Below are positions 2,902-40,292 of a DNA stretch of 40,721 nucleotides, piece after piece (within the stretch, counting starts at the first letter, position 1; each line of letters begins with the position of its first letter). The notes beneath the pieces were generated by a model. It was given only the letters and a program-made list of their open reading frames with translations, did no database searches and was not told the origin of the DNA. The stretch spans positions 1 to 40,721 of IMG/VR virus record IMGVR_UViG_3300025009_000224. The stretch is one strand, 5' to 3'. The DNA comes from a virus. The position numbers and the translations under genes were made by a program.

Positions 2902-3312
2902 ATGATAGTTAGATGTGAGTCTCAAAATGACAATAGGGATTATTACATAATCAATGACGCTAACAATCTTGATGAGCTAAAGAATTATGCTGATAAGAAT
3001 TTACCAATTAAATGTTTAAAAATCAGTGAGACCAAATTAAGAAGAATTTTCCTTGATATAGGAATTGAAGTAAATGTGTATCTAAATAATTATTTATGGT
3101 ATTCGGATGTCACAAGCTATTATTACTTAATGAGCGAAGATCAAGCTGAAGAAATAGAAAAAGCTAATTGTACTAATTGTTACAATAATACTGAATGGGC
3201 AGGATGTTTTAGAGGATATAAAAAAGGGGAAGGAATGAAGTTTTTTAACTATAAGGAAAAATTATTAAAAAATGCTAGAAAGGGATTCTTTAGTTGGTTG
3301 TTTAATAATTAA
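2902..3312 (+). CDS. hypothetical protein with a C-terminal Cys cluster, 136 aa
   Basis: I choose ATG 2902, seven bases after AGAAAGGAG (2886-2894). An in-frame TTG at 2878 is upstream of that site. Mixed alpha/beta N-terminal part, then a Cys-x2-Cys pair and a third Cys (ANCTNC, WAGC), and a basic tail ending in WLFNN. Function unknown. Confidence 0.75.
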   Translation: MIVRCESQNDNRDYYIINDANNLDELKNYADKNLPIKCLKISETKLRRIFLDIGIEVNVYLNNYLWYSDVTSYYYLMSEDQAEEIEKANCTNCYNNTEWAGCFRGYKKGEGMKFFNYKEKLLKNARKGFFSWLFNN

Positions 3313-3351
3313 ATTAAATACAGATATTCTTTGATAGAGAGGATGCTGAAA

Positions 3352-3711
3352 ATGGAATTAAAATATTTAAGTGAAAATTGTCTTGGATGCAAATGTAGAA
3401 CATGTAAATCAACATACAAATCAGACGACAATTCATCTTGCTATACGTGGTGTGAAGAGGAATGCAAAGGAGAAGAACCTCTTGATTTTAGACCAGATAA
3501 AGAGTGCTATGAATTAATGGATAATTATTGCGAGTATATTCATGTTGAATGTGAATATATAGTTGTCTGTAAAAATTATGATGGAGTATGTGCTAAAGAT
3601 ATGTTGGGTAATTATTTTAGAACAGAAGGATATTTACCTGAAGATATTTTAGCAAGAATTAAGCAATATGAAGAGAAGGAGAAGAAAAATAAAGAATTGG
3701 AATCTATTTAA
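3352..3711 (+). CDS. Cys-rich putative zinc-binding protein, 119 aa
   Basis: Start at ATG 3352, eight bases after GAGAGGA (3337-3343); two in-frame starts upstream lack that spacing. The N-terminal 40 residues carry seven Cys (10, 13, 15, 18, 30, 34, 38), which suggests one or two zinc sites. More Cys occur in the middle. The C-terminus is a Lys/Glu-rich helix. It is the last gene before the 489-base gap. No named family. Confidence 0.75.
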   Translation: MELKYLSENCLGCKCRTCKSTYKSDDNSSCYTWCEEECKGEEPLDFRPDKECYELMDNYCEYIHVECEYIVVCKNYDGVCAKDMLGNYFRTEGYLPEDILARIKQYEEKEKKNKELESI

Positions 3712-3716
3712 AAAAT

Positions 3717-3784
3717 ACAAATGGAAAATACAAAAAGGTAAAGGAGTTGCCACACCATAAATCCTTAAGGTATTTTCCATTTGT
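3717..3784 (+). ncRNA. putative structured RNA: 15-bp perfect stem, third diverged copy of the element at 10243/32378
   Basis: The arms at 3717-3731 and 3770-3784 are perfectly complementary over 15 bases and enclose 38 bases. An inner 5-bp helix is possible (AAGGA 3741-3745 with TCCTT 3762-3766). The loop holds GTTGCCACA and, just before the right arm, TAAGG. These match the TTGCTAyA and TAAGGG core of the two other elements, with 11 extra bases between. No U-run follows, so it does not look like an intrinsic terminator. Confidence 0.45.
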
Positions 3785-3822
3785 AAGAATAGTGTAACAC
3801 GGATACCATTAAATGTGAATAG

Positions 3823-3993
3823 GAAATTAATGTAATTATTGTTAATCCATTAAGGCTATTATGTTGCTTTAATATTCATAACTTTAAATTGTTACAAATG
3901 AATGGTAAATACAATACTTTTTATTGTAAATGGTGTGATGAGAAATTAATACAAAAAGTTAAATGTAAAGAAAATGTAAAGAGATTTAATTAG
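3823..3993 (+). pseudogene. small DUF1660-like zinc-binding gene lacking a usable start
   Basis: The frame is open from 3823 to TAG 3991-3993 but has no ATG, GTG or TTG before an internal ATG at 3898. The translation contains NPLRLLCC, then NIHNF, then YCKWCDEKL. This is the Cys-His-Cys-x2-Cys layout of short phage zinc proteins such as DUF1660. An ATG at 3830 follows AGGAAA (3821-3826) in the neighbouring frame and meets TAA at once. One extra base after it would restore M-x-I-I-V-N-P-L. So this is either a decayed gene, an assembly indel, or an ATT start. Confidence 0.4.
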
Positions 3994-3995
3994 AA

Positions 3996-4070
3996 TTATT
4001 TGTTCAAGTAATAAATCAACATACCTATAAATGGAGTAGCAATAATTACCAAACCTAAAATTATAATCAC
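3996..4070 (-). CDS. possible minus-strand membrane peptide, 24 aa
   Basis: On the - strand a GTG-started frame encodes a strongly hydrophobic peptide (MIIILGLVIIATPFIG then MLIYYLNK), a plausible single membrane helix. No convincing ribosome binding site precedes it. It would be the only minus-strand gene here, and a minus-strand terminator lies upstream of it. It may be chance, since AT-rich DNA readily encodes Ile/Leu runs. Confidence 0.2.
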   Translation of the reverse strand: MIIILGLVIIATPFIGMLIYYLNK

Positions 4071-4091
4071 AATTCTTCTAATATCCTAATT

Positions 4092-4119
4092 AAAAAGACC
4101 CTGCCCATAAAAGCAAGGT
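4092..4119 (-). terminator. possible intrinsic terminator reading leftward
   Basis: Read on the - strand, ACCTTGC (4119-4113) pairs with GCAGGGT (4104-4098) through a 7-bp stem with one U-G pair. It is followed by C and five Ts. In the + direction the same stem has a C-A mismatch and no T-run. No minus-strand gene is seen to its right, so its client is unknown. Confidence 0.3.
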
Positions 4120-4200
4120 TGGATGTAGGACGAGAATGAATTTAGTACGAGATTATCATATCCAGATAATTAATAATTATACATAAAGAGGAGCAAAACA

Positions 4201-4416
4201 ATGAAATGTATTAAGGAAAGTTGTAGAATGCCATATATGTCAGGAAATACTGGATTTTGCAACGAACTAGAAACTTTTATTTTTGGTAGTGAAGCAGAAT
4301 GTCCTCTGCCAGATAAGATTTTGCAACTTGAAAAACAATTAAGGGAATATAATTGTATTATGGATAAGGTGATTGTTTATCATGCAAAAAATGGTGAGAA
4401 AGGTGATGTAAATTAA
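4201..4416 (+). CDS. MKCI-family Cys-rich protein, copy 1, 71 aa
   Basis: ATG 4201 follows AAGAGGAG (4186-4193). This is the first of three paralogues in 1.6 kb that begin MKCI and share Cys3, Cys8, Cys20 and Cys33/34, followed by a C-terminal helix (here residues 36-55). The four Cys suggest a small zinc-binding head with a helical tail. The stop overlaps the next start by one base (TAATG). Function unknown. Confidence 0.8.
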   Translation: MKCIKESCRMPYMSGNTGFCNELETFIFGSEAECPLPDKILQLEKQLREYNCIMDKVIVYHAKNGEKGDVN

Positions 4417-4793
4417 TGAATGATGTAATACAGTATAAGTGTCCAGAATGTGGCGAATATGGAGCATCTAAATCATGGGACGAAGAAACAATAAAACATT
4501 ATGATGAAAGTGAACATGATTGTGTTTTATCAATTACAACAAGTAAAAATGATTGTGAATTTTATTGTCCTAATTGTAAATCGCTTATTGATGGAAAGGA
4601 TATAAAAACTGATGAAGAATTAATAAAACCATCAAATATTATTAAGGAAAAGATTGAAGAAATATTAATGGAATATATGGATGGTACTTATAAAGGATTT
4701 GATGGAGAAAATTTAATAGACAATATTAATGTTTGTTCTTTAAGAGACGATTTAATTAAATTATTTGATGAAATGAATAAGGAGGAATTATAA
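4416..4793 (+). CDS. zinc-ribbon protein, 125 aa
   Basis: Translation is coupled to the previous gene through TAATG. Two Cys-x2-Cys knuckles (Cys9/Cys12 in CPECGEYG and Cys51/Cys54 in CPNCKS) flank a strand-rich segment, as in a zinc ribbon. Two extra Cys (36, 47) lie between. The C-terminal half is acidic and helical. The DNA, RNA or protein partner cannot be told from the sequence. Confidence 0.8.
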   Translation: MNDVIQYKCPECGEYGASKSWDEETIKHYDESEHDCVLSITTSKNDCEFYCPNCKSLIDGKDIKTDEELIKPSNIIKEKIEEILMEYMDGTYKGFDGENLIDNINVCSLRDDLIKLFDEMNKEEL

Positions 4794-4795
4794 TA

Positions 4796-5137
4796 ATGGA
4801 AGGATTTAAAATAAACTGTACTAAGTGTAATGCAGATGAAACAGAATTATATGAGAAAAATATTTATGATAATTTAAAAATAATTGGATATGATATTTAT
4901 TTTGTCTGCAATGAATGCCAATGGGAAGAATTATTTAAAGAAATAAGATACCCAGTAGAAGAAGTTGTAGATATGAAAATCATTAAAATCATTGTAAATA
5001 AGTTACCTAAAAATTGTAGCTTGTGCACTTTGCACGAAGATGAATATTGTAAAATTAAAGGTAGTGTAATTGGTTCAGAATGGGTTGATTTATATTCTGA
5101 TTTTAGAGATGGTGATTGCCCTTTAGAGATTGAATAA
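4796..5137 (+). CDS. two-module Cys-rich protein, 113 aa
   Basis: The start at ATG 4796 follows AAGGAGGAATTATAATA closely. The N-terminal zinc ribbon uses Cys8/Cys11 and Cys38/Cys41. A second module starts at about residue 70 (LPKNCSLC) with Cys74, Cys77, Cys85 and Cys108 and ends RDGDCPLE, a layout common in small phage Cys proteins. It looks like a fusion of two small zinc modules. Function unknown. Confidence 0.8.
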   Translation: MEGFKINCTKCNADETELYEKNIYDNLKIIGYDIYFVCNECQWEELFKEIRYPVEEVVDMKIIKIIVNKLPKNCSLCTLHEDEYCKIKGSVIGSEWVDLYSDFRDGDCPLEIE

Positions 5138-5161
5138 AATAATAAATAAGGAGTGATAAGG

Positions 5162-5392
5162 ATGAAATGCATAGGTGCGAAATGTCCTAGTATATTTGAA
5201 TCAGACGGTAAAAAGTGGTGTAATGTGCTAAATTATTATGTTTGGAATGATAGTGAATGTAAATTGCCTAATAAAATTAGAGAAATTAGGGATGAATTAT
5301 TGAGGAAATGTGAGTTGTTAGAAACTATTTTAGAGGTTGATTGTGTTAAAGATTTGGATAAATTAATTGATTTGATAGATGAAGCAACATGA
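5162..5392 (+). CDS. MKCI-family Cys-rich protein, copy 2, 76 aa
   Basis: ATG 5162 lies 8 bases after AAGGAG (5148-5153); the in-frame GTG 5153 overlaps that site. Cys3, Cys8, Cys20 and Cys33 match copies 1 and 3 exactly. The tail is a long helix with hydrophobic repeats (residues 36-70), possibly a coiled coil. The stop overlaps the next gene (ATGA). Confidence 0.8.
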   Translation: MKCIGAKCPSIFESDGKKWCNVLNYYVWNDSECKLPNKIREIRDELLRKCELLETILEVDCVKDLDKLIDLIDEAT

Positions 5393-5580
5393 TTAAACTT
5401 AATCCTTATTCTTGGCAAGATGCTGAATATTGGTTTGAAGATGAATCAGAAGTATTTGAGTTTATGAAAGCGAATGAAGATATGATTATTAAATATTCTT
5501 TAGAAAATGGAATGACGATTAGGGATGGGATTAAATATTTGTTTAGGGTGAGAGGGTGTAATAGTGAAATGTATAGGTGA
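5389..5580 (+). CDS. hypothetical protein, 63 aa
   Basis: It overlaps the upstream stop by four bases (ATGA), so it is probably translationally coupled. The product is aromatic-rich (YSWQDAEYWFEDE) and ends in RGCNSEMYR. It also overlaps the following GTG-started gene by 17 bases. No family recognised. Confidence 0.7.
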   Translation: MIKLNPYSWQDAEYWFEDESEVFEFMKANEDMIIKYSLENGMTIRDGIKYLFRVRGCNSEMYR

Positions 5581-5776
5581 AAAATGTTTGGAGTATTATG
5601 AGGGAACATTTAGATTTTATTGTAGATTAATGGGTTATCCGGTTAATTTAGAATCTAATTGTTTAATTAGCAAATATATTCAAAGAGAAAAAGATAGACT
5701 GGCTGATTTATTTAAATTAGAAGATATTATAAGTGAATTAAAAATTTTACGAGACTGCAATGAAGAAAAGATTTAA
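5564..5776 (+). CDS. MKCI-family Cys-rich protein, copy 3, 70 aa
   Basis: The start is GTG 5564, seven bases after GAGGG (5552-5556). The choice is supported by exact alignment of M-K-C-I-G-E-K-C with copy 2 and by conserved Cys3, Cys8, Cys20 and Cys33. The tail is helical. It lies inside the end of the previous gene. Confidence 0.8.
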   Translation: MKCIGEKCLEYYEGTFRFYCRLMGYPVNLESNCLISKYIQREKDRLADLFKLEDIISELKILRDCNEEKI

Positions 5777-5817
5777 TCAGTTAAAGAATGTATTTTAAAG
5801 AAAAGGAGGGAATTAAT

Positions 5818-6078
5818 TTGTATATGGGCAGAAAAGCAGATTATGCAATGATGGTATTATATACTGTAGGTTCAGATATAAGAAGGGTACTTAGAAAGAT
5901 ATTAGGATATTGTGATTATTGTAATAAGTATTTTCTTTATCCTAAAAAAAGACATATGAATACCATGTATGAAAATGAAGAATCAAATTACTGTACTTGT
6001 TGTGAAGAATGTTTTGATCATATAGAAGAATACTGGTCAGAATGTTGGAAGGAATATAATAATAGTAGAGGATGTTAA
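5818..6078 (+). CDS. Cys-rich hypothetical protein, 86 aa, TTG start
   Basis: TTG 5818 is seven bases after AAAGGAGGG. An in-frame ATG at 5788 precedes the ribosome binding site and is unlikely. A short helical N-terminus is followed by Cys32/Cys35 (YCDYC) and a Cys59, 61, 62, 65 cluster, which suggests a zinc-ribbon-like fold. Function unknown. Confidence 0.75.
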   Translation: MYMGRKADYAMMVLYTVGSDIRRVLRKILGYCDYCNKYFLYPKKRHMNTMYENEESNYCTCCEECFDHIEEYWSECWKEYNNSRGC

Positions 6079-6117
6079 GGTATCCTAGCAAATCAGAATT
6101 TGAAAGGAAGTTAAAGA

Positions 6118-6315
6118 ATGAGCAAACCACTAATTGAATTAATATTCCCCGAATCTGGAGATTGGGAAGTATTGAGAATGAATTTAGGAGAAGATTTTAA
6201 ACATGAAGGGCACTCAATTCCTAACGGGGCATGGATTAAGTTGTTAGAAATATTGGGTTATGAAGTTGAAGTAAAATATATTTCTGATGAAGATATGGAG
6301 CATGAGAGATATTGA
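6118..6315 (+). CDS. hypothetical protein, 65 aa
   Basis: The gene follows ATTTGAAAGGA (6098-6108), with a spacing of 9 to ATG 6118. The acidic product has a mixed fold (GDWEVLRMNLG, GAWIKLLEILGYEVEV). No recognised domain. Confidence 0.75.
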   Translation: MSKPLIELIFPESGDWEVLRMNLGEDFKHEGHSIPNGAWIKLLEILGYEVEVKYISDEDMEHERY

Positions 6316-6362
6316 GTTCATTTCAAAGAGAAGATTTATCGAATTACGAAAGGAGCATAAAT

Positions 6363-6560
6363 ATGACAAGAACTATAGATTATGCTAAATGTCCTAAATG
6401 TGGTAAGAAATTTGAAATGGGATTCAATAATTATTGGATGTCTTCAGCTTTTGGAGAATATTCATTCGGTCATACCAGTCATACATGTGAAGATTGTGGA
6501 ACTAAGTTTAATATGACTGTTAAGAAGCAAATCGTGTTTAATGCAAAAATAATAAAATAA
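6363..6560 (+). CDS. zinc-ribbon protein, 65 aa
   Basis: ATG 6363 lies seven bases after GAAAGGAG (6348-6355). The longer reading frame overlapping the previous gene has no ribosome binding site. Classic two-knuckle zinc ribbon: Cys10/Cys13 (CPKCGKKF) and Cys42/Cys45 (CEDCGTKF). It is essentially all ribbon, so it probably binds nucleic acid or a host protein. The target is unknown. Confidence 0.8.
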   Translation: MTRTIDYAKCPKCGKKFEMGFNNYWMSSAFGEYSFGHTSHTCEDCGTKFNMTVKKQIVFNAKIIK

Positions 6561-6576
6561 AAGGAATGTGAACATA

Positions 6577-7662
6577 TTGAAAAGAAAAACAATAAACGCT
6601 GTAATAACTAAGAAAATTAATGAGTGGTTAGAAAGTATAGATGATCCCACGGTAAAGCAAAAGATTAAAAAGGATATTATTGTAACTGGTGGTTGCATTA
6701 CCTCAATGCTATTAAATGAAGATGTTAATGATTTTGATATCTATTTTAAGACAAAAGAAAGTGTAAAAGTAATCTCTCAATATTATTGCGATAAATTCAA
6801 TGAAAGCAACAACACAAAAACAAATAAACTAGGTAGACCATATCGCGCATGGGTACTTGATGGAACTGATGTGGAAGCATGGAAAGAAGATAGAAAATTA
6901 TTATCAGAATTTGCATTTGATTATAAGGATATAAAATATAAAGATGTAAAAGACTGGGTTTATTCTGAAGAAGATGAAAATAGATATACATATTTACAAG
7001 TTTCAGGTATGTTACTAAATACTTCTCTTGATAGAATTAAGATTATGATTAATTCAGATGGAATTGCAGAGGATAGTGATTCAGTAGCAGATAATGCAGA
7101 ATATAATATTGATACATATTTAGATGCTTTGAGTGGCGGAGATAATATTTCTGCTGAAGAATTGGAGGAGAAAGAAAATAAGACAAAATATAAACCAATA
7201 TTCTTATCAACAAACGCAATTACTTTATCTAATAAAATTCAATTAATTATAAGATTTTATGGTGAACCAGATGTAATTCACGAAAACTATGATTTTGTAC
7301 ACGCTACAAATTATTGGACTTATGCAACTGGAACAGTATTAAATCAAAGAGCATTGGAGTCAATTTTAAATAAAGAATTGTTTTATATTGGTTCAAAATA
7401 TCCAATTTGCAGTTTAGTTAGAACAAGAAAGTTCATAAAGAGAGGTTGGCAAATTAACGCAGGGCAATATGTAAAAATATCTTTTCAAATTAGCAAATTA
7501 GATTTAGAGAATATCTATGTGTTGGAAGATCAGCTTGTAGGAGTAGATAGTATTTATTTCTTAAATTTTATTAATGCGTTAAAAACAAAACATATAAAAA
7601 ATAATGATTTTGTATTGACTCAAGATTATTTAACTACTGTGATTGATAAAATATTTGGTTAA
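6577..7662 (+). CDS. nucleotidyltransferase-fold protein
   Basis: About 361 aa from TTG 6577, which sits 10 bases after AAAGGAA; GTG 6568 is too close to that site. Residues 37-58 carry the signature of the polymerase-beta nucleotidyltransferase fold: a GlyGly pair (38-39) then Asp52-x-Asp54 in NDFDIYF. The later part contains many strands and a His/Tyr-rich segment (HENYDFVHATNYW). Relatives add nucleotides to RNA ends or to small molecules. The substrate here is not predictable. Confidence in the fold is fair, in the reaction low. Confidence 0.65.
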   Translation: MKRKTINAVITKKINEWLESIDDPTVKQKIKKDIIVTGGCITSMLLNEDVNDFDIYFKTKESVKVISQYYCDKFNESNNTKTNKLGRPYRAWVLDGTDVEAWKEDRKLLSEFAFDYKDIKYKDVKDWVYSEEDENRYTYLQVSGMLLNTSLDRIKIMINSDGIAEDSDSVADNAEYNIDTYLDALSGGDNISAEELEEKENKTKYKPIFLSTNAITLSNKIQLIIRFYGEPDVIHENYDFVHATNYWTYATGTVLNQRALESILNKELFYIGSKYPICSLVRTRKFIKRGWQINAGQYVKISFQISKLDLENIYVLEDQLVGVDSIYFLNFINALKTKHIKNNDFVLTQDYLTTVIDKIFG

Positions 7663-10242: not shown

Positions 10243-10281
10243 GAATCCGTAAATCATTGCTATATAAGGGTTTACGGATTC
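10243..10281 (+). ncRNA. putative conserved structured RNA element, copy A
   Basis: A perfect 11-bp stem (10243-10253 with 10271-10281) encloses 17 bases. The stretch from TTGCTATATAAGGG into the right arm matches copy B (at 32378) in 18 of 21 positions. Two of the three differences fall in the stem and keep pairing through matching changes in the other arm. No U-run follows. It lies in the leader of the gene at 10336. A second small hairpin (TTCGA/TCGAA) follows at 10291-10304. Confidence 0.5.
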
Positions 10282-10335
10282 GTAAAATACTTCGAAATAT
10301 CGAATTTATAGGATTAAGAAAAGGTGGTTAAAATT

Positions 10336-17384: not shown

Positions 17385-17585
17385 ATGTTTAAAATAATTT
17401 GTAGCACATGTAGTAATGAAGTTAATTTAATTAAACCAGAAGACGAGGAAGAACGTACATATGATGAAGATGATGGTTGGTATGTTACTGAAGAAAAATT
17501 AAGTAAATTTGATTTTCATGGTGAACATGATCAAATTTGGATAACTTGTAACGCTTGTGACACAAGGGTTTGGATGTTCACATAA
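17385..17585 (+). CDS. zinc-ribbon protein, 66 aa
   Basis: It follows AAAGGAG. Cys6/Cys9 (CSTCSNEV) and Cys55/Cys58 (CNACDTRVW) bracket a very acidic insert. Typical small phage zinc ribbon with unknown partner. Confidence 0.78.
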   Translation: MFKIICSTCSNEVNLIKPEDEEERTYDEDDGWYVTEEKLSKFDFHGEHDQIWITCNACDTRVWMFT

Positions 17586-17625
17586 TCACATAAATCTCAT
17601 ATTTGAAAGGTAGAAGGGAATGATT

Positions 17626-32339: not shown

Positions 32340-32456
32340 ACCCTCAAGAAATTTTCATTTTATGGGGTTATGCTTAAAATGACCATAAACTCAAATTTTC
32401 AATAAAATCAGTAAAATAGTCCTGTAACTGTTGCTACATAAGGGTTTGTGGTCATT
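32340..32456 (+). ncRNA. putative conserved structured RNA element, copy B
   Basis: Arms 32378-32392 and 32442-32456 pair over 15 bases with two G-U pairs around a 49-base loop. The stretch TTGCTACATAAGGG plus the start of the right arm matches copy A in 18 of 21 positions, with stem changes that keep pairing. Upstream, CATTTTA (32356-32362) can pair with TAAAATG (32375-32381), which overlaps the left arm by four bases, so the two helices compete. ACCC at 32340-32343 can pair with the GGGGT loop of that hairpin. No U-run follows. Confidence 0.5.
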
Positions 32457-32474
32457 AAATAGGCGTAAATAATT

Positions 32475-32543
32475 ATGTTATATATGCTATCCTTTAAAAG
32501 TGGAATTTTATTTGGTTTGGTTTTTATTAGAAGTAAGAAATAA
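32475..32543 (+). CDS. possible membrane peptide, 22 aa
   Basis: ATG 32475 opens a 22-codon frame with a hydrophobic core (GILFGLVFI) and a basic end (RSKK). The upstream site (AGGCG) is weak, and it ends just before the -35 of the next promoter. Could be chance. Confidence 0.2.
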   Translation: MLYMLSFKSGILFGLVFIRSKK

Positions 32544-32549
32544 AATATG

Positions 32550-32578
32550 TTGACATGGAGATTTGATTATGTTATAAT
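32550..32578 (+). promoter_or_regulatory. strong vegetative promoter for the replication operon
   Basis: TTGACA (32550-32555) and TATAAT (32573-32578) are 17 bases apart, with TGT in front of the -10 (extended). The upstream AGTAAGAAATAAAATATG recalls that of the promoter at 23008. The downstream TATTAAGTGG recalls 29654. Confidence 0.82.
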
Positions 32579-32626
32579 TATTAAGTGGTTAAAAATAAAT
32601 AATATTTTAGAGAAAGGATTGATTGG

Positions 32627-32701
32627 TTGAAAAACAAAGGTAACTGTTGGAAACCTGTTAAGAAAAATAAATCTCCACCTTCTTTCAATATATTTTTATA
32701 A
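32627..32701 (+). CDS. leader peptide, 24 aa
   Basis: TTG 32627 lies eight bases after AGAAAGGA, shortly downstream of the promoter. The product starts MKNKGNCWKPVKKNK and ends SPPSFNIFL; it is basic with adjacent Cys and Trp. Codons 18-22 overlap the left arm of a hairpin whose right arm is the ribosome binding site of the next gene. This fits a regulatory leader rather than a working protein. Confidence 0.55.
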   Translation: MKNKGNCWKPVKKNKSPPSFNIFL

Positions 32702-32751
32702 GATCATGTGCATTAAATAATTAAATAATAAAATAAATTATTGAAAGAAGG
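32678..32751 (+). promoter_or_regulatory. hairpin that can hide the ribosome binding site of the ssDNA-binding-like gene
   Basis: CCTTCTTTCAATA (32678-32690) is the perfect complement of TATTGAAAGAAGG (32739-32751), with further AT pairs inside. The right arm is the ribosome binding site of ATG 32762 and the left arm lies inside the leader peptide frame. A ribosome on the leader would open the hairpin and allow translation of the next gene. Confidence 0.55.
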
Positions 32752-32761
32752 AATACATAAT

Positions 32762-33961
32762 ATGGCAAAGAAAGAAGATAAAAAACCACTAAAAAAAGGG
32801 CAATCATCGTTTCAATTAATCGGAGAAGCTAAACTATCAGACTTTACATTTAAAATGGATGAGACTACTACAAAATCTGATTGGGTTTGGAATAAACTAA
32901 ATCTTGGGGTGGATTGTGGTGGTGGCAATGTTGTCTATGCTGACTTAATGGGTGGATATGGTTCTGAAAGAGATAATATTCTCTATGTGCACGGTGTAAA
33001 AAAGAATGATAAAGATAAAGATGTTGACGATTATAAAAATCAGTTTACAATTGCTTGGGAAGATAGATTTGACGAAGAAATTCTTGAAACTATCGGCAAT
33101 CAATGTTTTATTACAGTTGGACTAGAAAAGGATATTAAAGAAAAAACATTTGCAAAAACTTTCTTATCACCATATGATGCCATTGAATATATACAAGAAC
33201 ATCTGAAAAACGGAATGGTTGTTAATATTAAAGGTGACTACGTATACAAAACATATCAAGACTCAACTCAGGCGGTAAAAGAAATTACGAGTATATTTTT
33301 ATCAAAGGTTGATGATCCATCAAAATACAAAGCAGTATTCACCCAAACCATTCTTCTTGATAAAGATAGTGTTGGTAAACTAGATAAAGAAAAAGCTATT
33401 TACCCTATCTATGCTAAGGTTGTAGATTATGTAAAAGAATATGATGGCAAGTTGGTAAAACAAAATATCGCATTTGATAAAATATTTGAACTTGAAGTGG
33501 ATAAAGTTAAACCAGAAAATACTAAGAAATTCCTTGATAAAGTTTTAAAAGTAAAGAAAGATATCACAGAAGTTACTATTGAGGGAGATATTATTGAAGG
33601 TCAATCTTTAGTTAATATCACTGAGTCAGATATTCCTGCTGACATCATGGAACTTATTGATATGGGTGCTTATACTATGGAAGACGCTATTAATAAACTA
33701 GCCGTAGGTGGAAGTAAGGAAAAGAAAATGGTGATTCGTAGACCTGCAATCAAAATGGTTGGAGAAGATGACAATAAAAAACCTATAATTCTAAAAACAG
33801 AAGGTCAATATAAGGATGAGGACTTACTTTTTGACTTCATGATTAAAAAAGAAGAGTCAGAAGAAAGCGATGCAGAAAACAATGAAGAAGAGGAAAAAGA
33901 CGAAGAAGATTTGTCTTGGATGGATGCATTAGATGAAGAAAACGGAGAAAATCAAGAGTAA
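32762..33961 (+). CDS. putative single-stranded DNA-binding protein
   Basis: The 399-aa product starts at ATG 32762 (AGAAGG upstream); an in-frame TTG at 32741 lies inside the ribosome binding site. A Lys-rich start leads to a long beta-rich domain (GEAKLSDFTFKM, LNLGVDCGGGNVVYADL) and a strongly acidic tail of about 45 residues ending EEDLSWMDALDEENGENQE. A large beta domain with an acidic C-terminal tail, placed first in a replication operon just before a RecA-like ATPase, suggests an SSB-type protein. I do not recognise a specific family. Its DLSWMD motif recurs at the C-terminus of the RecB-like nuclease. Confidence 0.55.
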   Translation: MAKKEDKKPLKKGQSSFQLIGEAKLSDFTFKMDETTTKSDWVWNKLNLGVDCGGGNVVYADLMGGYGSERDNILYVHGVKKNDKDKDVDDYKNQFTIAWEDRFDEEILETIGNQCFITVGLEKDIKEKTFAKTFLSPYDAIEYIQEHLKNGMVVNIKGDYVYKTYQDSTQAVKEITSIFLSKVDDPSKYKAVFTQTILLDKDSVGKLDKEKAIYPIYAKVVDYVKEYDGKLVKQNIAFDKIFELEVDKVKPENTKKFLDKVLKVKKDITEVTIEGDIIEGQSLVNITESDIPADIMELIDMGAYTMEDAINKLAVGGSKEKKMVIRRPAIKMVGEDDNKKPIILKTEGQYKDEDLLFDFMIKKEESEESDAENNEEEEKDEEDLSWMDALDEENGENQE

Positions 33962-33980
33962 TAATCGAGAGTAATAAACA

Positions 33981-34008
33981 AAGGAGAGGGAGTTAAACCT
34001 CTCTCCTT
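33981..34008 (+). other. intergenic hairpin with SD-like arm, copy 1
   Basis: AAGGAGAGGG (33981-33990) pairs with CTCTCTCCTT (33999-34008) with one G-U pair and an eight-base loop holding TTAA. No U-run follows. A similar hairpin lies in the next intergenic gap (35196-35218). Possible mRNA processing or stability element, or decoy ribosome site. Confidence 0.5.
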
Positions 34009-34046
34009 ACCAATGAAAATAAAATAGTTGAAAGAAGGTAAACTTT

Positions 34047-35186
34047 TTGGCAGAGAGAAAATTTGGTAAGAAGAACATTATTAAGGTAGATCCTTTAGCA
34101 TATAACTTAGGTTTAATTGGACTAAGTGGTATTGGTAAAACCACACTCGCAAAAGAGGTGTGTGAGGAACTCGTAGGAGAAGATGGTTATATTATTGCCA
34201 ACGTAGGTAGAGAGGATGGAATTGATGCAATCGCTGGTGCGATATATGAGGATATTCCAGATTGGGATACTTTTGAGGAATTTACAACAGATATCATAGA
34301 AAATAAGTTAACAGATTATAAGGATTTAAAGGTTATAGTATGGGATACCATTGATGAATTAATTCGCATTGCAGAACCAGAGGCTATTAGACTTTCTAAT
34401 AAAGATCAATACGGAAAAAAAGACCCTAAGATTGTTAAGACAATTAATGGAGCTTGGGGTGGTTTTGGTAAAGGTGAAATATATACTATTGACATGATTA
34501 TGGGGGTACTATGGGAGTTAAAAAGAGTTGGAGTGGCTATGTTTTTAGTTGGTCATACAAAAGAAAGAACAATGACAGATGCAGTATCAGGTACTGAGTA
34601 CAATATTATTACAACGAATATGCAACTTAATTATTTTACTGCACTAAAAACAAAATTACATATTCTTGGTGTAGCAAGCATTGATAGAGAAATTGTTATG
34701 GAAAAGACTGGCAAGAAAGATTTAGCAGGGAAAGACAAAATTAAAGGTCATGTAAAAAATGAAAGTAGGAAAATTACTTTCAGAGATGACAATTTTAATG
34801 TAGATTCAAAATCAAGATTTTCTGAAATCATAGATTCAATTGAGTTTAATTCATCAGATTTTATCAAAGCTGTTGAGGATGCCATTAAAATTGAACACGA
34901 TAAACAATCTGGAAATAAGTCAATTGAAGAAACAAAAGTAGAACAAGCAGTAGAAAAAGATAAGGTTGTAGAAAAAAATGTCTCTGAAAAGAAAGAAGAA
35001 CTTGCAGGTTTAGAAGTAGAAAAACTTGTAGCAATGATTACTAGTTTTGTAAAAATAAACAAATCAAATTCTGAAATTTTAAAACCACTGCTCCTAAAAA
35101 GTAAAGAGTTAGGATATGTAAACCCTACAAAAGTTGATAATTTAGAACATGCAAATATATTATTTGATTTGATAGATGGTAAATAA
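34047..35186 (+). CDS. Sak4-like RecA-family recombination ATPase
   Basis: 379 aa from TTG 34047, after GAAAGAAGG. Walker A is GLSGIGKT (25-32) and Walker B is VIVWDTID (Asp101). VGHTKE follows in the sensor position. The compact RecA core of about 240 residues matches the Sak4 group of phage single-strand annealing/RecA-like proteins. A Lys/Glu-rich linker (about 285-325) leads to a small C-terminal helical domain. Placement after an SSB-like gene fits the way Sak4 proteins pair with SSB. Confidence 0.78.
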   Translation: MAERKFGKKNIIKVDPLAYNLGLIGLSGIGKTTLAKEVCEELVGEDGYIIANVGREDGIDAIAGAIYEDIPDWDTFEEFTTDIIENKLTDYKDLKVIVWDTIDELIRIAEPEAIRLSNKDQYGKKDPKIVKTINGAWGGFGKGEIYTIDMIMGVLWELKRVGVAMFLVGHTKERTMTDAVSGTEYNIITTNMQLNYFTALKTKLHILGVASIDREIVMEKTGKKDLAGKDKIKGHVKNESRKITFRDDNFNVDSKSRFSEIIDSIEFNSSDFIKAVEDAIKIEHDKQSGNKSIEETKVEQAVEKDKVVEKNVSEKKEELAGLEVEKLVAMITSFVKINKSNSEILKPLLLKSKELGYVNPTKVDNLEHANILFDLIDGK

Positions 35187-35195
35187 ATAATAAAT

Positions 35196-35218
35196 GGGAG
35201 GGAATTAATTTTCCTCCC
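35196..35218 (+). other. intergenic hairpin with SD-like arm, copy 2
   Basis: GGGAGGGAA (35196-35204) pairs with TTTCCTCCC (35210-35218) with one G-U pair and a five-base loop. It closely resembles the hairpin at 33981 in purine-rich left arm, TTAA near the loop and position between two replication genes. No U-run follows. Confidence 0.5.
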
Positions 35219-35245
35219 TAAACTTACAATTAGAGGTGAGAGAGT

Positions 35246-35701
35246 ATGACTGTTAAACCTAGAAAAGACCAAGATTGGATTGATCTTTATGAGTATGTTA
35301 AAAAAGAAATTATGGAATATACTCCTGATATAAAATTACCAAAGTATATAATATTAAGATTAAAAGGTCTTGCGTCAGGGCAATTCCTAGCAAACAAGAA
35401 GCAAACTCCTATGTGTAGTTATGAATTTAAAACTATTTTATATACTTTTAAGTTATGTAGACCAAATATATTAGTCGGTTTTAGAACCAATAATACCAAG
35501 TTTACAGATGAAAAGCACAAATTCAATTATGCAATGGTTATTATCGAAGGAAATATTAATGATATGGTAATAAGATTAAGAAATGCTGAAAATGCAAAAA
35601 CAAAAGCTGAGAATATAGATATGGAAAATATTTATCATGAGGGAGCAGAATATCAACCTAAGACTAAAAAACTAAGTTACACATTAGAAGATTTATGGTA
35701 A
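35246..35701 (+). CDS. hypothetical protein of the replication operon, 151 aa
   Basis: It follows AGAGGTGAGAGAGT. Basic, alpha/beta, with an N-terminal helical part (DWIDLYEYVKKEIMEY) and a C-terminal YTLEDLW. No catalytic motif. Position between the RecA-like ATPase and the DnaB-type helicase suggests a replication accessory such as a loader, but nothing in the sequence proves it. Confidence 0.75.
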   Translation: MTVKPRKDQDWIDLYEYVKKEIMEYTPDIKLPKYIILRLKGLASGQFLANKKQTPMCSYEFKTILYTFKLCRPNILVGFRTNNTKFTDEKHKFNYAMVIIEGNINDMVIRLRNAENAKTKAENIDMENIYHEGAEYQPKTKKLSYTLEDLW

Positions 35702-35709
35702 AAAGGTAG

Positions 35710-37230
35710 GTGACAACTATTACTCAAACTAACAAGACAAAAGATACAAAGTTAACTCCATTTGAAGAGGAATTATTAAAATCAAGTAAGAAAATAAGAG
35801 AATACAAAAAAGCATGTGAAGCAAACATAGTGAGTATCCTTTGGAAAAACCATGATCTGTATTATACATACGATAATTTAAAACTTGCAAATTTTACAGA
35901 AAATGTTTGGAAGGTTTATTGGCAGATAGGTTACGACATAGTAATCAAAGAAAAAAAGCAAGTGCTTGACGACATAACTGTAGGACTATATCTAGAAAAG
36001 CACTTGAAGTTAAAAGAACAATATGAAAAATATAAAGGTTATGAAACAATTGAAAATGCAAAAGCATATGTGAAGACCGAAAATATGGATGGATATATTA
36101 ATGAACTTCATAAATGGAATGCTGTATTAGATTTATTAAAAAGAAAATTTCCTATTTTCGATAGAATTAGTGATTTTGTAGATATGACATCTGAACAAAT
36201 ATATGACGAGTTCGAAGCAGTATTGAATCATGTTTTTGTTAACGTTGAAGGTGATGATATTACCCATGATATTTCTGATGGTTTAGATGAATTAATCGAA
36301 GAACTAGATCAAGGAATGGCGGTAGGTTTACCTTTGCATAATACACCAACGCTAAATAAAGAAGTTGGCGGTAATCTTGAAGGAAATATTACTCTTGTCG
36401 GTGGACTTAGTGGTGTTGGTAAAACCGCACTTAGCAGGATTTTAATTCTTCCAAGTATATTAGAACATAAAGAAAAAATAGTCATAATGATAAACGAAGA
36501 AGGTAAAAAGAAATGGCAACGTGAATTTTTGGTTTGGGTAGCTAATAATATCTTCAAAGAAGATTTACAAAAATATATCGTCCGAGATGGTAGATATAAA
36601 CCAGAAGTAAAAGCACTACTTAAGAAATGTTCTGAATGGGTTAAGCAATATAAAAACACAATTATACTAAAACCATTCACTCAATATACTACAGCGAAGG
36701 CTATTAAAACAATAAAAAAGTATGCTAGTATGGGTGTAAAATACTTCATGTTAGATACATATAAAGCAGATTCTAAGGCATCAAGCAGTGAGTCATTTTG
36801 GTTCAGTATGCAACAAAATATGGTTGAAATTAATGATGTGATTAAATCAGAAGCGAAGAATGTACATATTTGGATTACATTTCAATTAAGTAAAGGTAGT
36901 TCAAAACAAAGATACTATGATCAAGACAATATAGGTATGGCAAAGAATATTATTGACGTTGCATCAACTTGTTTGATGATTAGAAAGGTATTTGAAGATG
37001 AAATAGAGGGAGGTAAGCGCGAGTTAGATGTTTACAGGAAAGAAAAAAGACAAGGTAATACCGAATCACAAATTCCTGTAAAATTAAAGAAAGGTAAAAA
37101 CTATCAGATTATATTTATTGTTAAGAATCGCGAAGGTAGTACAAATGATTATCAGATCGTTGTGGAGCACGACCTTTCAAGAAACACATACAAAGAGGTT
37201 GGTTATACAGTAGTTCCAGTAGATTTCTAA
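35710..37230 (+). CDS. DnaB-type replicative helicase
   Basis: 506 aa from GTG 35710. An N-terminal helical domain (about 1-180) is followed by a RecA-like helicase core with Walker A GGLSGVGKT (231-239). The loop MINEEGKKKWQRE carries the catalytic Glu of H1a. Walker B is YFMLDTYK, and QLSKGS follows at the H3 region. The C-terminal strands NREG and VEHDLSRNTY resemble DnaB family ends. It unwinds DNA at the fork with the primase encoded next. Confidence 0.85.
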   Translation: MTTITQTNKTKDTKLTPFEEELLKSSKKIREYKKACEANIVSILWKNHDLYYTYDNLKLANFTENVWKVYWQIGYDIVIKEKKQVLDDITVGLYLEKHLKLKEQYEKYKGYETIENAKAYVKTENMDGYINELHKWNAVLDLLKRKFPIFDRISDFVDMTSEQIYDEFEAVLNHVFVNVEGDDITHDISDGLDELIEELDQGMAVGLPLHNTPTLNKEVGGNLEGNITLVGGLSGVGKTALSRILILPSILEHKEKIVIMINEEGKKKWQREFLVWVANNIFKEDLQKYIVRDGRYKPEVKALLKKCSEWVKQYKNTIILKPFTQYTTAKAIKTIKKYASMGVKYFMLDTYKADSKASSSESFWFSMQQNMVEINDVIKSEAKNVHIWITFQLSKGSSKQRYYDQDNIGMAKNIIDVASTCLMIRKVFEDEIEGGKRELDVYRKEKRQGNTESQIPVKLKKGKNYQIIFIVKNREGSTNDYQIVVEHDLSRNTYKEVGYTVVPVDF

Positions 37231-37245
37231 AAAGGGGATGGTGAT

Positions 37246-38313
37246 ATGACAGCAAATGAACTTATCCAGTACATTATTGATAATGACAAAATTTTAAATA
37301 TACTTGAAGACTTAGGTTGTCATCATCTTAAGGAATACGGCAAGGAATATAGGTGTGGATTACCTACTCATTCAAGCAAGGATGCTATTTCGATTAAAAA
37401 AGAAACGCTTAAAACTAAAGTATTTCAATCTAATAGTAATATTATTAGAGGCAATATATTTACACTATGTCAAACTATCAAAAATTATTCGTTTTCAGAA
37501 GCTAATAGATATATACACAATCTATTTGGCCTTGAATATAAATTCAAATTCAATAAAAAGAACGATACTGATTTTAAAGACCCATTAGAAATTTTCAAGA
37601 AGGTAAAAAAGAAAAAGTATACAGATATAAATAATTTAGATGTAATAAACGAAGACTGTTTGAGCGAGTATATACCATACATCCATATAGAATGGGTTAG
37701 AGAAGATGGTATTATGCCTTGGACATCAAAAGTATTTAATATTGGATATAGTGTAAATAAAAAGAGAATAGTTATTCCTCATCGGTATTGGAGTGGAGAA
37801 AAAAATGATTATGTAGGTGTTATAGGTAGAACAGTAATTAAAGAATGGGAGATGTTAGATATACCAAAATATTTCCCATTAAAAAACTTCCCTAAGAGCA
37901 TGAATATCTATGGACTACAAGAGAATTATCAAACCATACAAGAAACAGGATATTGTGTTCTGTACGAGGCAGAAAAGAGCGTTTTAAAGCGTCATAGTAG
38001 GAATGATGGTACTGGTGTTGCTGTGTGTTGTCATGATATCTCAGATGAACAGGTAAAGATCCTAATTGGGTTAAATGTTGATGTAGTTATTGCTTTTGAT
38101 AAGGGAATTTCAATAGAACATATAAGAAGTGCCTGTGATCGTTTTTATGGTATTAGGACTGTATATTACATATATGATAAATATGGTTTGCTTGAGGATA
38201 AGATGAGTCCTGCGGATACAACTAATCGTTTTTACAACTATTTGTTTAAATACAAAACTCTTTATGACGAAACGGAACATAAAACACATATGAAATATTT
38301 AGAAAGTAGGTAA
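37246..38313 (+). CDS. DnaG-type DNA primase
   Basis: 355 aa following AAAGGGGATGG. The N-terminal zinc-binding region is CHC2-like but irregular: Cys25, His26/27, Cys37 (CGLPTHSS) and His42. A Toprim domain follows, with Glu241 in VLYEAEKS (the usual Toprim Glu) and an acidic VVIAFDKG (Asp285). At this length it lacks the C-terminal helicase-binding domain of bacterial DnaG. It lays RNA primers for the polymerase encoded downstream. Confidence 0.8.
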   Translation: MTANELIQYIIDNDKILNILEDLGCHHLKEYGKEYRCGLPTHSSKDAISIKKETLKTKVFQSNSNIIRGNIFTLCQTIKNYSFSEANRYIHNLFGLEYKFKFNKKNDTDFKDPLEIFKKVKKKKYTDINNLDVINEDCLSEYIPYIHIEWVREDGIMPWTSKVFNIGYSVNKKRIVIPHRYWSGEKNDYVGVIGRTVIKEWEMLDIPKYFPLKNFPKSMNIYGLQENYQTIQETGYCVLYEAEKSVLKRHSRNDGTGVAVCCHDISDEQVKILIGLNVDVVIAFDKGISIEHIRSACDRFYGIRTVYYIYDKYGLLEDKMSPADTTNRFYNYLFKYKTLYDETEHKTHMKYLESR

Positions 38314-38322
38314 TCAATTTAA

Positions 38323-39159
38323 GTGTATAATATTAATCTAGAATTAGAGAGCAGAATTGATAGAGAAAAATATATCGGAAAAATATTCGAATCAAAACAT
38401 TATGGTGAATTTTCAGTTAAAGGCGTATACGGAAAAGACAGAACTGGCACGAAAACTTACGTATGTGAATTTGTAAAAACAAAATACCAATCAATAGTTA
38501 CTGCTGGAAATATTAATAAAGGAAATGCAAAAGATTTATTATTGCCAAGTATTTATAATCATGGATATATAGGAAACTTTTATAATAATGTAAGGGAGTT
38601 GAAGTCCTATGTAACATGGGTAAATATGCTAAAAAGAGTATACAGTAAAGACGAGTTAGTTAAAAATCCTACTTATATTGATGCTTTTATAAATGAACGT
38701 TGGCATTGTTTTAAAAATTTTAATGAAGATTATAGCAAAATACTAGGCGTTGATAAAATTATTGAATATCCTAATATAAAATTTTGCTTAGACAAAGATA
38801 TAATTACAGATACGAAAACTTATAGTTTAAATAATTGCTGTTTTATTCCAGAACAAATAAATAATATTTTTATTAATAAGCAAATTACAAATACTGCAGG
38901 GTATGAGGGTACTTATTATTTAGAAGATGATCTTGTGTATATTTCTGCTGTAAAATATAAAGGTAAGAAAATAAGTCTTGGTAGATTTTTAGATGTAAGA
39001 GAAGCATATGAAAAATATCATATCAAAAAGAAAGAGATACTTTTATTATATTTGAAAGATTTTTATTGGATAGACAGTAAAATTAAAAATGCTTGTTTAA
39101 ACAAATTAGAAAGACAGTATACCCAAACAATAAATAATAATATAAAGGTGGTTATATAG
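38323..39159 (+). CDS. homing-endonuclease-like protein with AP2 DNA-binding domain
   Basis: 278 aa from GTG 38323, with only a weak ribosome binding site. Residues about 90-135 (SYVTWVNMLKRVYSKDE, then YIDAFINERWHCFKNFNED) match the W-x-x-MLKRCY...CEEWxxFxNF module of phage homing-type DNA-binding proteins. Residues about 190-250 (AGYEGTYYLEDDLVYI, LGRFLDVREAYEKYH) form an AP2-like domain similar to that of the HNH protein at 15435. It breaks up the primase-nuclease-polymerase order, as expected of an inserted free-standing homing gene. The catalytic residues are not clear. Confidence 0.7.
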   Translation: MYNINLELESRIDREKYIGKIFESKHYGEFSVKGVYGKDRTGTKTYVCEFVKTKYQSIVTAGNINKGNAKDLLLPSIYNHGYIGNFYNNVRELKSYVTWVNMLKRVYSKDELVKNPTYIDAFINERWHCFKNFNEDYSKILGVDKIIEYPNIKFCLDKDIITDTKTYSLNNCCFIPEQINNIFINKQITNTAGYEGTYYLEDDLVYISAVKYKGKKISLGRFLDVREAYEKYHIKKKEILLLYLKDFYWIDSKIKNACLNKLERQYTQTINNNIKVVI

Positions 39160-40292
39160 TGGCTCGAAAAACAGGCGAAGAATTAGAAAAACTAAAAAAG
39201 AAATATAATGTTCACCAACTCTGGAGTTGGAGTAGATATAATTGTTATAAAAATTCAGTATACGAATTCTATCTTAAATACATAGCAAAAGTAAAAGAAG
39301 ACAGAGATGATGGTATTTATGGGGTAAGTGGTAATGCGTGTCATGGAATTCTAGAGAAATTCTACTCTAAGGAAATCGAATATGAAGATATGCTACAAGA
39401 ATATGAAAACGTATTATTTACATTCAATGCAGGAGAGTTAAAATATGATAGGACTAATGAAGAAAAAAATAATAATATTGCTAATAAGTATGAATCATGT
39501 CTAAGACATTTCTTCCAAAATCATAAAGTTATTAATAACAAAAAAGTAGAAATAGAAAAATTTATTATTGTAAAAGTTAATAATTTTATATTTCAAGGCT
39601 ATATTGACTTTATCCACAAAGAAGACGGTTATTTTATTATCACGGATTGGAAAACTTCAAGCATATATACAGGTAAAAAAATAGACAAAGAAAAAGGACA
39701 GTTGGTTTTATATGCCGAAGCTTTAATACAGCTTGGAGTACCTTTAGAAAAGATAAAAATAAGATGGGATTTCCTAAAATATGTAATTGTAGAAGTGCAA
39801 CAGGCGAATGAAAAAATAGTTGAGAGGAATATTGCGAGGAACGAGATTGGGTCTAGTTTAAAATCAAACGCTAAGATGTGGCTCAAAAAAGCGAAATGTT
39901 ACTCAGACGAAGAAATTGAATCATATTTAGAGTTATTAGTTATGACAAATGATATAAATAGTTTGCCAGAAGACATAAAAATAAAATACAAACTCAGTGA
40001 CTGTTATGTTTATATACCATTCTCACAAGAAGAAATTAAGAAACTCAAGGCAGATATTGTAGATGCTATTGTAGATATTGGCAAAAAAGAATGTGAATAT
40101 ATGAAAACTAAAGATGAAAATGTATGGTGGGAAGAAGTAACTGATTCTGAATCATACTTCTTTGCAAATCTGAGTGGATATAGTGCAAACTTGCATAAAC
40201 CATATGCTGTTTATTTAGAAAAGAGAAAATATTTTAGTTCGGCAGATAATAAAAAGGATGAAGACGATTTAAGTTGGATGGATAACCTATGA
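39159..40292 (+). CDS. RecB/Cas4-like PD-(D/E)XK nuclease
   Basis: 377 aa from GTG 39159, overlapping the previous stop by one base. Early SWSRYNCYKN helix and GNACHGILEKFY are typical of the RecB-nuclease family. The catalytic set is Asp150 (GYIDFI), Asp163-x-Lys165 (TDWKTSS) and Gln about 182 before LVLYAEAL. No four-Cys iron-sulfur cluster is seen. The protein ends DEDDLSWMDNL, sharing the DLSWMD peptide with the ssDNA-binding-like protein, perhaps a docking tail. It likely resects or processes DNA ends in phage recombination. Confidence 0.82.
   Translation: MARKTGEELEKLKKKYNVHQLWSWSRYNCYKNSVYEFYLKYIAKVKEDRDDGIYGVSGNACHGILEKFYSKEIEYEDMLQEYENVLFTFNAGELKYDRTNEEKNNNIANKYESCLRHFFQNHKVINNKKVEIEKFIIVKVNNFIFQGYIDFIHKEDGYFIITDWKTSSIYTGKKIDKEKGQLVLYAEALIQLGVPLEKIKIRWDFLKYVIVEVQQANEKIVERNIARNEIGSSLKSNAKMWLKKAKCYSDEEIESYLELLVMTNDINSLPEDIKIKYKLSDCYVYIPFSQEEIKKLKADIVDAIVDIGKKECEYMKTKDENVWWEEVTDSESYFFANLSGYSANLHKPYAVYLEKRKYFSSADNKKDEDDLSWMDNL

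Follow-up and report, generated by a model that had tools for sequence, protein, structure and literature searches.

Three copies of an inverted repeat in the window

The window, a 40.7-kb virus record (40,721 nt, 28.8% GC) that is itself a fragment, holds three copies of an inverted repeat once paralogues are counted (A, B and E, all on the plus strand), not two. Copy A (10243..10281) contains the 11-bp hairpin described by the first-pass annotation, an uninterrupted stem of 10243-10253 with 10271-10281 around a 17-nt loop; no other inverted repeat in the window passes the threshold, which makes this one the strongest there, and its folding z is -5.7. The 21-mer that copy A was said to share with a second site is real, as the stretches at 10257-10277 and 32431-32451 are identical at 18 of 21 positions, giving 2 matches against 0.01 expected in shuffles, and both of the pair differences named between the two copies, G-C against A-U and U-A against U-G, are present. 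Neither copy is followed by a U-run and no terminator-like site occurs at B, in agreement with the claim that these are not intrinsic terminators. Rewritten around a 7-bp centre, GCTATAT, copy A reads as a DNA palindrome with 16-bp arms that match at 14 of 16 positions and with an inner 23-bp site at 10251-10273. In the stretch on its 3′ side (10282..10309), the best ATRAAA-like box is GTAAAAT at +8, one helical turn nearer than the +18 position typical of the family described below, and +18 itself holds merely a weak dyad, TCGAAA-TATCGA-ATTTAT, which we read as weaker than the family box. By its sequence, copy A is thus an atypical family member, with longer outer arms, GTAAAAT at +8 and a weak box at +18, and in an exact scan of viral contigs it recurs only in L016/L143.

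Copy B (TAACTGTT-GCTACAT-AAGGGTTT, 32425..32447) lies 5′ of a replication and recombination operon and is followed at +17 by a promoter-like box, GTAAAT (32465..32470), that reads ATAAAT in most orthologues and stands at +18 in L007. Further downstream come a sigma-70 promoter matching the consensus at 12/12 positions (TTGACA-17-TATAAT, 32550..32578), conserved in relatives, and the operon itself (32762..40292, plus strand), which encodes a phrog_2367 protein, a Sak4-like annealing protein, a MerR-type HTH protein, a DnaB-like helicase and further genes in the order found in Thomasclavelia phage TR-TP1 and Bacillus phage Goe12. Copy B also folds strongly (z -5.6), through a stem of 32378-32392 with 32442-32456 around a loop of about 49 nt. 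The hairpins of A and B are thus not the same object: the likeness claimed for them stands for the shared 21-mer and fails for the hairpin, as position 32378 marks only the far left arm of B, and TCCTGTAACTG, which adjoins the shared 21-mer of B, does not pair with the right arm. That far left arm, AATGACCATAAACTC (32378..32392, plus strand), is an inverted partial copy of B's own right half about 50 bp upstream of it, seen in the window at 32340-32490 and in aligned relatives, so the pairing there has an explanation at the DNA level. Among 10 distinct orthologue sequences, the long stem is kept in 8 and lost in L004 and L015, and none shows a two-sided change that keeps a pair, all changes being one-sided. 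In L004 and L015, the inverted partial copy is replaced by a stretch with ATATACAGG that is able to pair with CCTGTA instead.

Two further features were noted around this operon. In one relative (L138:1-240), the place occupied by copy B in other contigs, immediately 5′ of the promoter, holds the end of a TnpB gene of IS605 type; the idea that copy B derives from an IS605 element was dropped, the conserved block having no sharp downstream border in other contigs. The operon leader (window 32600-32762), conserved in relatives, contains a conserved small ORF with a TTG start at 32627 (MKNKGNCWKPVKKNKSPPSFNIFL*). The last stretch of this ORF, CCTTCTTTCAAT (32678-32689), is complementary at all 12 positions to ATTGAAAGAAGG (32740-32751), which forms the Shine-Dalgarno region of the gene that follows. 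With a fold z of -2.1, the leader looks from its sequence like a case of translational attenuation by a leader peptide.

Copy E (TAACGCTT-GTGACAC-AAGGGTTT, 17549..17571) was found by a scan for AAACCCTT/AAGGGTTT-type arms with any centre. It is intergenic and carries the full module, with a different centre and with the box ATAAAT-ctcata-TTTGAA at exactly +18 (17590..17607, plus strand), followed by the ribosome site GAAAGG and a gene from about 17620, yet it does not fold (z +0.35).

The site is dispersed among large groundwater phages

An exact scan of viral contigs with the shared element returned 16 loci, and 14 of these are copy B, in a conserved block 5′ of the perfect sigma-70 promoter and the replication operon, with upstream genes that differ; the sixteenth locus, in L002, lies inside a coding region and looks like a chance match. 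A shorter 17-mer yielded 79 stretches, mostly on contigs that have proteins in common with the window or with its large relatives. Among these stretches are two more families of sites, C (CCCTGTAACCCTTGCTACATAAGGGTTTC) and D (AAAGTGTTGCTATATAAGGGTTT), from the same groundwater phages. Family D sites occur 68-78 nt downstream of tyrosine recombinase genes; these genes differ between L180/L214 and L182, as do the downstream neighbours. Matches from a 15-mer contig scan were mostly chance and were discarded. The half-site AAGGGTTT, extended to AAGGGTTTCAGG in several copies, recurs in dispersed intergenic copies across large groundwater phages that are distantly related to SPbeta, with about ten sites in G048 (142.8 kb), about six in G027 (150 kb), the three in the window and others in G007 and G001. 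The intergenic conservation claimed for the element therefore exceeds chance and extends to related phages. A literature search for the core sequence gave no match.

A wider class of palindromes, AACCCTTG-N5-TAAGGGTT, abounds in unrelated phages, with more than 120 stretches at least in viral contigs L273-L389, and 97 of 110 among the matches listed lie outside long ORFs; terminators explain only part of them. Because this class is common with any centre in unrelated phages, a loop shared there is no evidence of kinship, and we rejected the 17-mer matches in such phages as instances of a conserved loop.

A promoter-like box stands at a fixed distance from the palindrome

When 28 distinct loci were oriented by their genes, ATRAAW (with at most one mismatch) followed the right arm at a distance of exactly 18 bp in 19, compared with about 2 of 28 at other offsets, a box and offset first noticed by eye on part of these same 28 sites. 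A scan of G048 that was independent of arm sequence, accepting any arm matching at 7/8 positions and centre lengths of 4 to 11, also peaked at a centre of 7 and an offset of 18 (8 sites, against a mean of 0.76). Sites read afterwards repeat the box, as at G052 15242 (ATGAAA-gaggta-TTTTAT) and G054 3921 (ATGAAA-gacgaa-GTTTAA). The box is often followed by N6-TTT, with a ribosome site within a few tens of bases, and this fixed spacing to a promoter-like box before a ribosome site puts the likely transcript downstream of the palindrome. The ATRAAA box appears to behave like a -10 element and, if it is one, the centre of the palindrome would lie near -42. Class II activators such as lambda OR2 have this geometry, with a palindrome near -42 of the promoter, and the likeness would hold if the box is the -10 element.

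ATRAAA-N6-TTT (also AAATATCGATTTTAT) is found on its own as well, with no palindrome, 38-50 nt before start codons in G048, G007, G012 and L140-L142, and is a candidate for a general promoter element of these phages. G007 encodes a YonO-like RNA polymerase (3291-7005) that occupies two open frames; an insertion may have split it. A search with sigma-70 region 4 for a phage sigma factor gave one match over the cut-off, in G007 only.

MrpR homologues in site-bearing phages

Among named phages, the nearest are Thomasclavelia phages TR-TP1/TP2 (42% in DnaB) and Bacillus Spbetaviruses (29%), which have the same replication gene order. In SPbeta, the master repressor MrpR (YopR) binds the SPBRE repeat in ten promoter regions, one of them that of yorE, with which the replication operon begins (PMC10516654). 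Homologues of MrpR are encoded by the largest of the site-bearing contigs, and we found them in G007, G013, G027, G048, G005, G016 and G040, the last from another metagenome and fetched by the DNA motif alone before its homologue was found by profile, and a YopQ homologue adjoins the MrpR homologue in G007, G016, G027 and G048, as in SPbeta. A profile of three of these homologues matches PDB 8A0A (MrpR) at 7e-26, YopR entries at 2e-25 and PDB 9rd5/9rgl, named only ‘Core-binding domain-containing protein’, at 2e-41. Since the HxxR motif is missing from them, the phage homologues look, like MrpR, unable to recombine.

Among palindrome-selected contigs outside the family and longer than 40 kb, an MrpR homologue is present in 3/3 with the exact +18 box and in 2/27 that lack it (Fisher p 0.0025), a test limited by the length of the contigs and by prior knowledge of the box. 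The 17-mer scan gave 41 other contigs, of lower average length, and no such homologue is present in them; nor was one detected in G001 or G012, both site-bearing fragments longer than 110 kb. The window, also a fragment, contains no MrpR gene. Two unrelated contigs (G056 and G070, that is, L310 and L295) combine the palindrome with an MrpR homologue and lack the box at +18, and their promoters may have another geometry.

Comparison with SPBRE and other known elements

The element resembles SPBRE in several respects. It is a repeat in several intergenic regions per SPbeta-like genome (about ten in G048 and three in the window), dispersed over promoter regions that include that of the replication operon; its dyad has a 7-bp centre; and MrpR homologues stand next to YopQ in phages that carry the sites. 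The position of copy B is syntenic with the yorE promoter region of SPbeta, a place bound by MrpR. The most symmetric SPBRE copies of Goe12 can be read, in our own reading, as ATACA-N7-TGTAT, again with a 7-bp centre. The sequence differs, however: the element is not identified by the SPBRE sequence (ACAAANAATATGTAT), the half-site is TGTAT in SPBRE and AAGGGTTT here, and Goe12 contains no good AAGGGTTT palindrome. The placement differs as well, as SPBRE overlaps the -10 element whereas the element here is about 18 bp upstream of the ATRAAA box. Judged by these features, the element would act in the manner of SPBRE while differing from it in sequence, and its half-site AAGGGTTT is new. Inverted half-sites around a 6-8 bp centre are also shared with tyrosine recombinase sites such as loxP, dif and the lambda core sites, from which the element differs in having many promoter-linked copies, centres that vary within a genome and a candidate binder lacking catalytic residues.

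Alternative readings

The first-pass annotation took the element to be a structured RNA on the strength of covariation between two copies, and copies A and B do fold strongly, B with a 15-bp stem that most orthologues keep. Across the 28 distinct loci, however, the inner arms pair no better than in column shuffles (0.866 against 0.870) and the outer arms barely differ (0.469 against 0.440), although with Watson-Crick pairs only the outer-arm value is 0.384 against 0.317, reached by 11/1000 shuffles. Hardly any variation is seen in the right half, AAGGGTTT, whereas the left half varies without compensation, departures being one-sided, and neither copy E nor the other paralogues pair beyond column composition. 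Homologues thus exist in related phages, as proposed, but their stem changes do not keep pairing beyond shuffles, and the covariation is not borne out. Rfam at gathering threshold gave no match for the window and nine loci, so that the element shares with phage and bacterial leader RNAs in Rfam an intergenic hairpin before genes, and differs from them in lacking both an Rfam match and covariation. With no two-sided changes at B, two orthologues without the stem and a position upstream of the likely start site, an RNA element is very unlikely even for copies A and B, and the element in all likelihood acts at the level of DNA. When only two copies are compared, a DNA palindrome in which one half-site is conserved and the other drifts can mimic RNA covariation. 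Intrinsic terminators or chance hairpins are less plausible still, to the point of being negligible: about one third of the AACCCTTG-N5-TAAGGGTT matches in unrelated phages are followed by T-runs, but A, B and E are not, B has no terminator match, and both sequence and spacing are conserved. For the copies in the window, their sequence already refutes the terminator reading.

If the site is DNA, its binder could still be another protein. We consider it unlikely that the element is a core or regulatory site of an active tyrosine recombinase of YomM, YopP or XerC type, even though a 7-bp centre between arms of 8-12 bp fits the geometry of such enzymes, copies in L180/L214 and L182 lie close downstream of recombinase genes, and Phage_integrase matches 7 of the 131 genes that flank palindromes of the wider class. 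Recombination partners would have an identical crossover centre, and here the centres differ within one genome, so that such sites could not recombine together; the sites also stand at many promoters with a fixed spacing to the box, and G013, G012, G015 and others have no PF00589 match. A short XerC-like recombinase was rejected as the binder, being carried by only 3/117 loci. Another activator of middle or late genes, not MrpR-like, might act from -42 with an alternative sigma factor or a YonO-type polymerase. The rigid 18-bp spacing, the occurrence of the box alone before start codons and the YonO-like polymerase of G007 would suit this idea, but MrpR homologues co-occur with the sites, MrpR sites of SPbeta lie at the syntenic operon and no candidate activator was found across contigs, which makes it a decidedly improbable account.

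A putative operator/promoter module of MrpR-like regulators

Dispersed intergenic sites with a conserved half-site, a free centre, a fixed spacing to the box, nearby ribosome sites and the co-occurrence of MrpR homologues lead us to favor the view that the element is probably an operator/promoter module of an MrpR-like regulator of tyrosine-recombinase fold in large SPbeta-like phages, with the MrpR-like protein itself a reasonably likely binder. Several observations weigh against this MrpR operator: the half-site and the placement are not those of SPBRE; the window and the site-bearing G001 and G012 yield no MrpR; copy A has GTAAAAT at +8 and just TCGAAA at +18; neither box nor MrpR accompanies the majority of AAACCCTT palindromes in unrelated phages; and the phages encode other DNA-binding proteins, namely YopP/YomM-type recombinases and MerR-type HTH proteins. 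As an MrpR operator, the element would be double-stranded DNA forming part of a regulated phage promoter, before small genes and before the replication operon. A dimeric protein would occupy two half-sites with the core AAGGGTTT flanking a 7-bp centre of little sequence importance, with the palindrome 18 bp (17 in B) upstream of the -10-like ATRAAA box and its centre near -42. The candidate for this protein is the phage's MrpR-like protein, with a tyrosine-recombinase fold and lost catalytic residues, which by extension from MrpR may hold the promoters off in the lysogen. Given the strict geometry, the MrpR-like protein may instead contact RNA polymerase, and activation is possible.

There is an even chance, in our estimate, that these phages use a previously undescribed regulon code, AAACCCTT-N7-AAGGGTTT, 18 bp, ATRAAA-N6-TTT, read by catalytically dead MrpR-like regulators across several large-phage lineages (G007/G013, G027, G048, G040, G052 and G054), with a rigid geometry suggestive of RNA polymerase contact, not simple blocking. 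The repressor MrpR, which has the build of a tyrosine recombinase, has been studied well, and SPbeta's own operator is the only one that we found described for it in the literature. The element may offer a second readable operator code for the MrpR family in large uncultured phages and, if this is true, the lysogeny regulons of such phages would become predictable from sequence.
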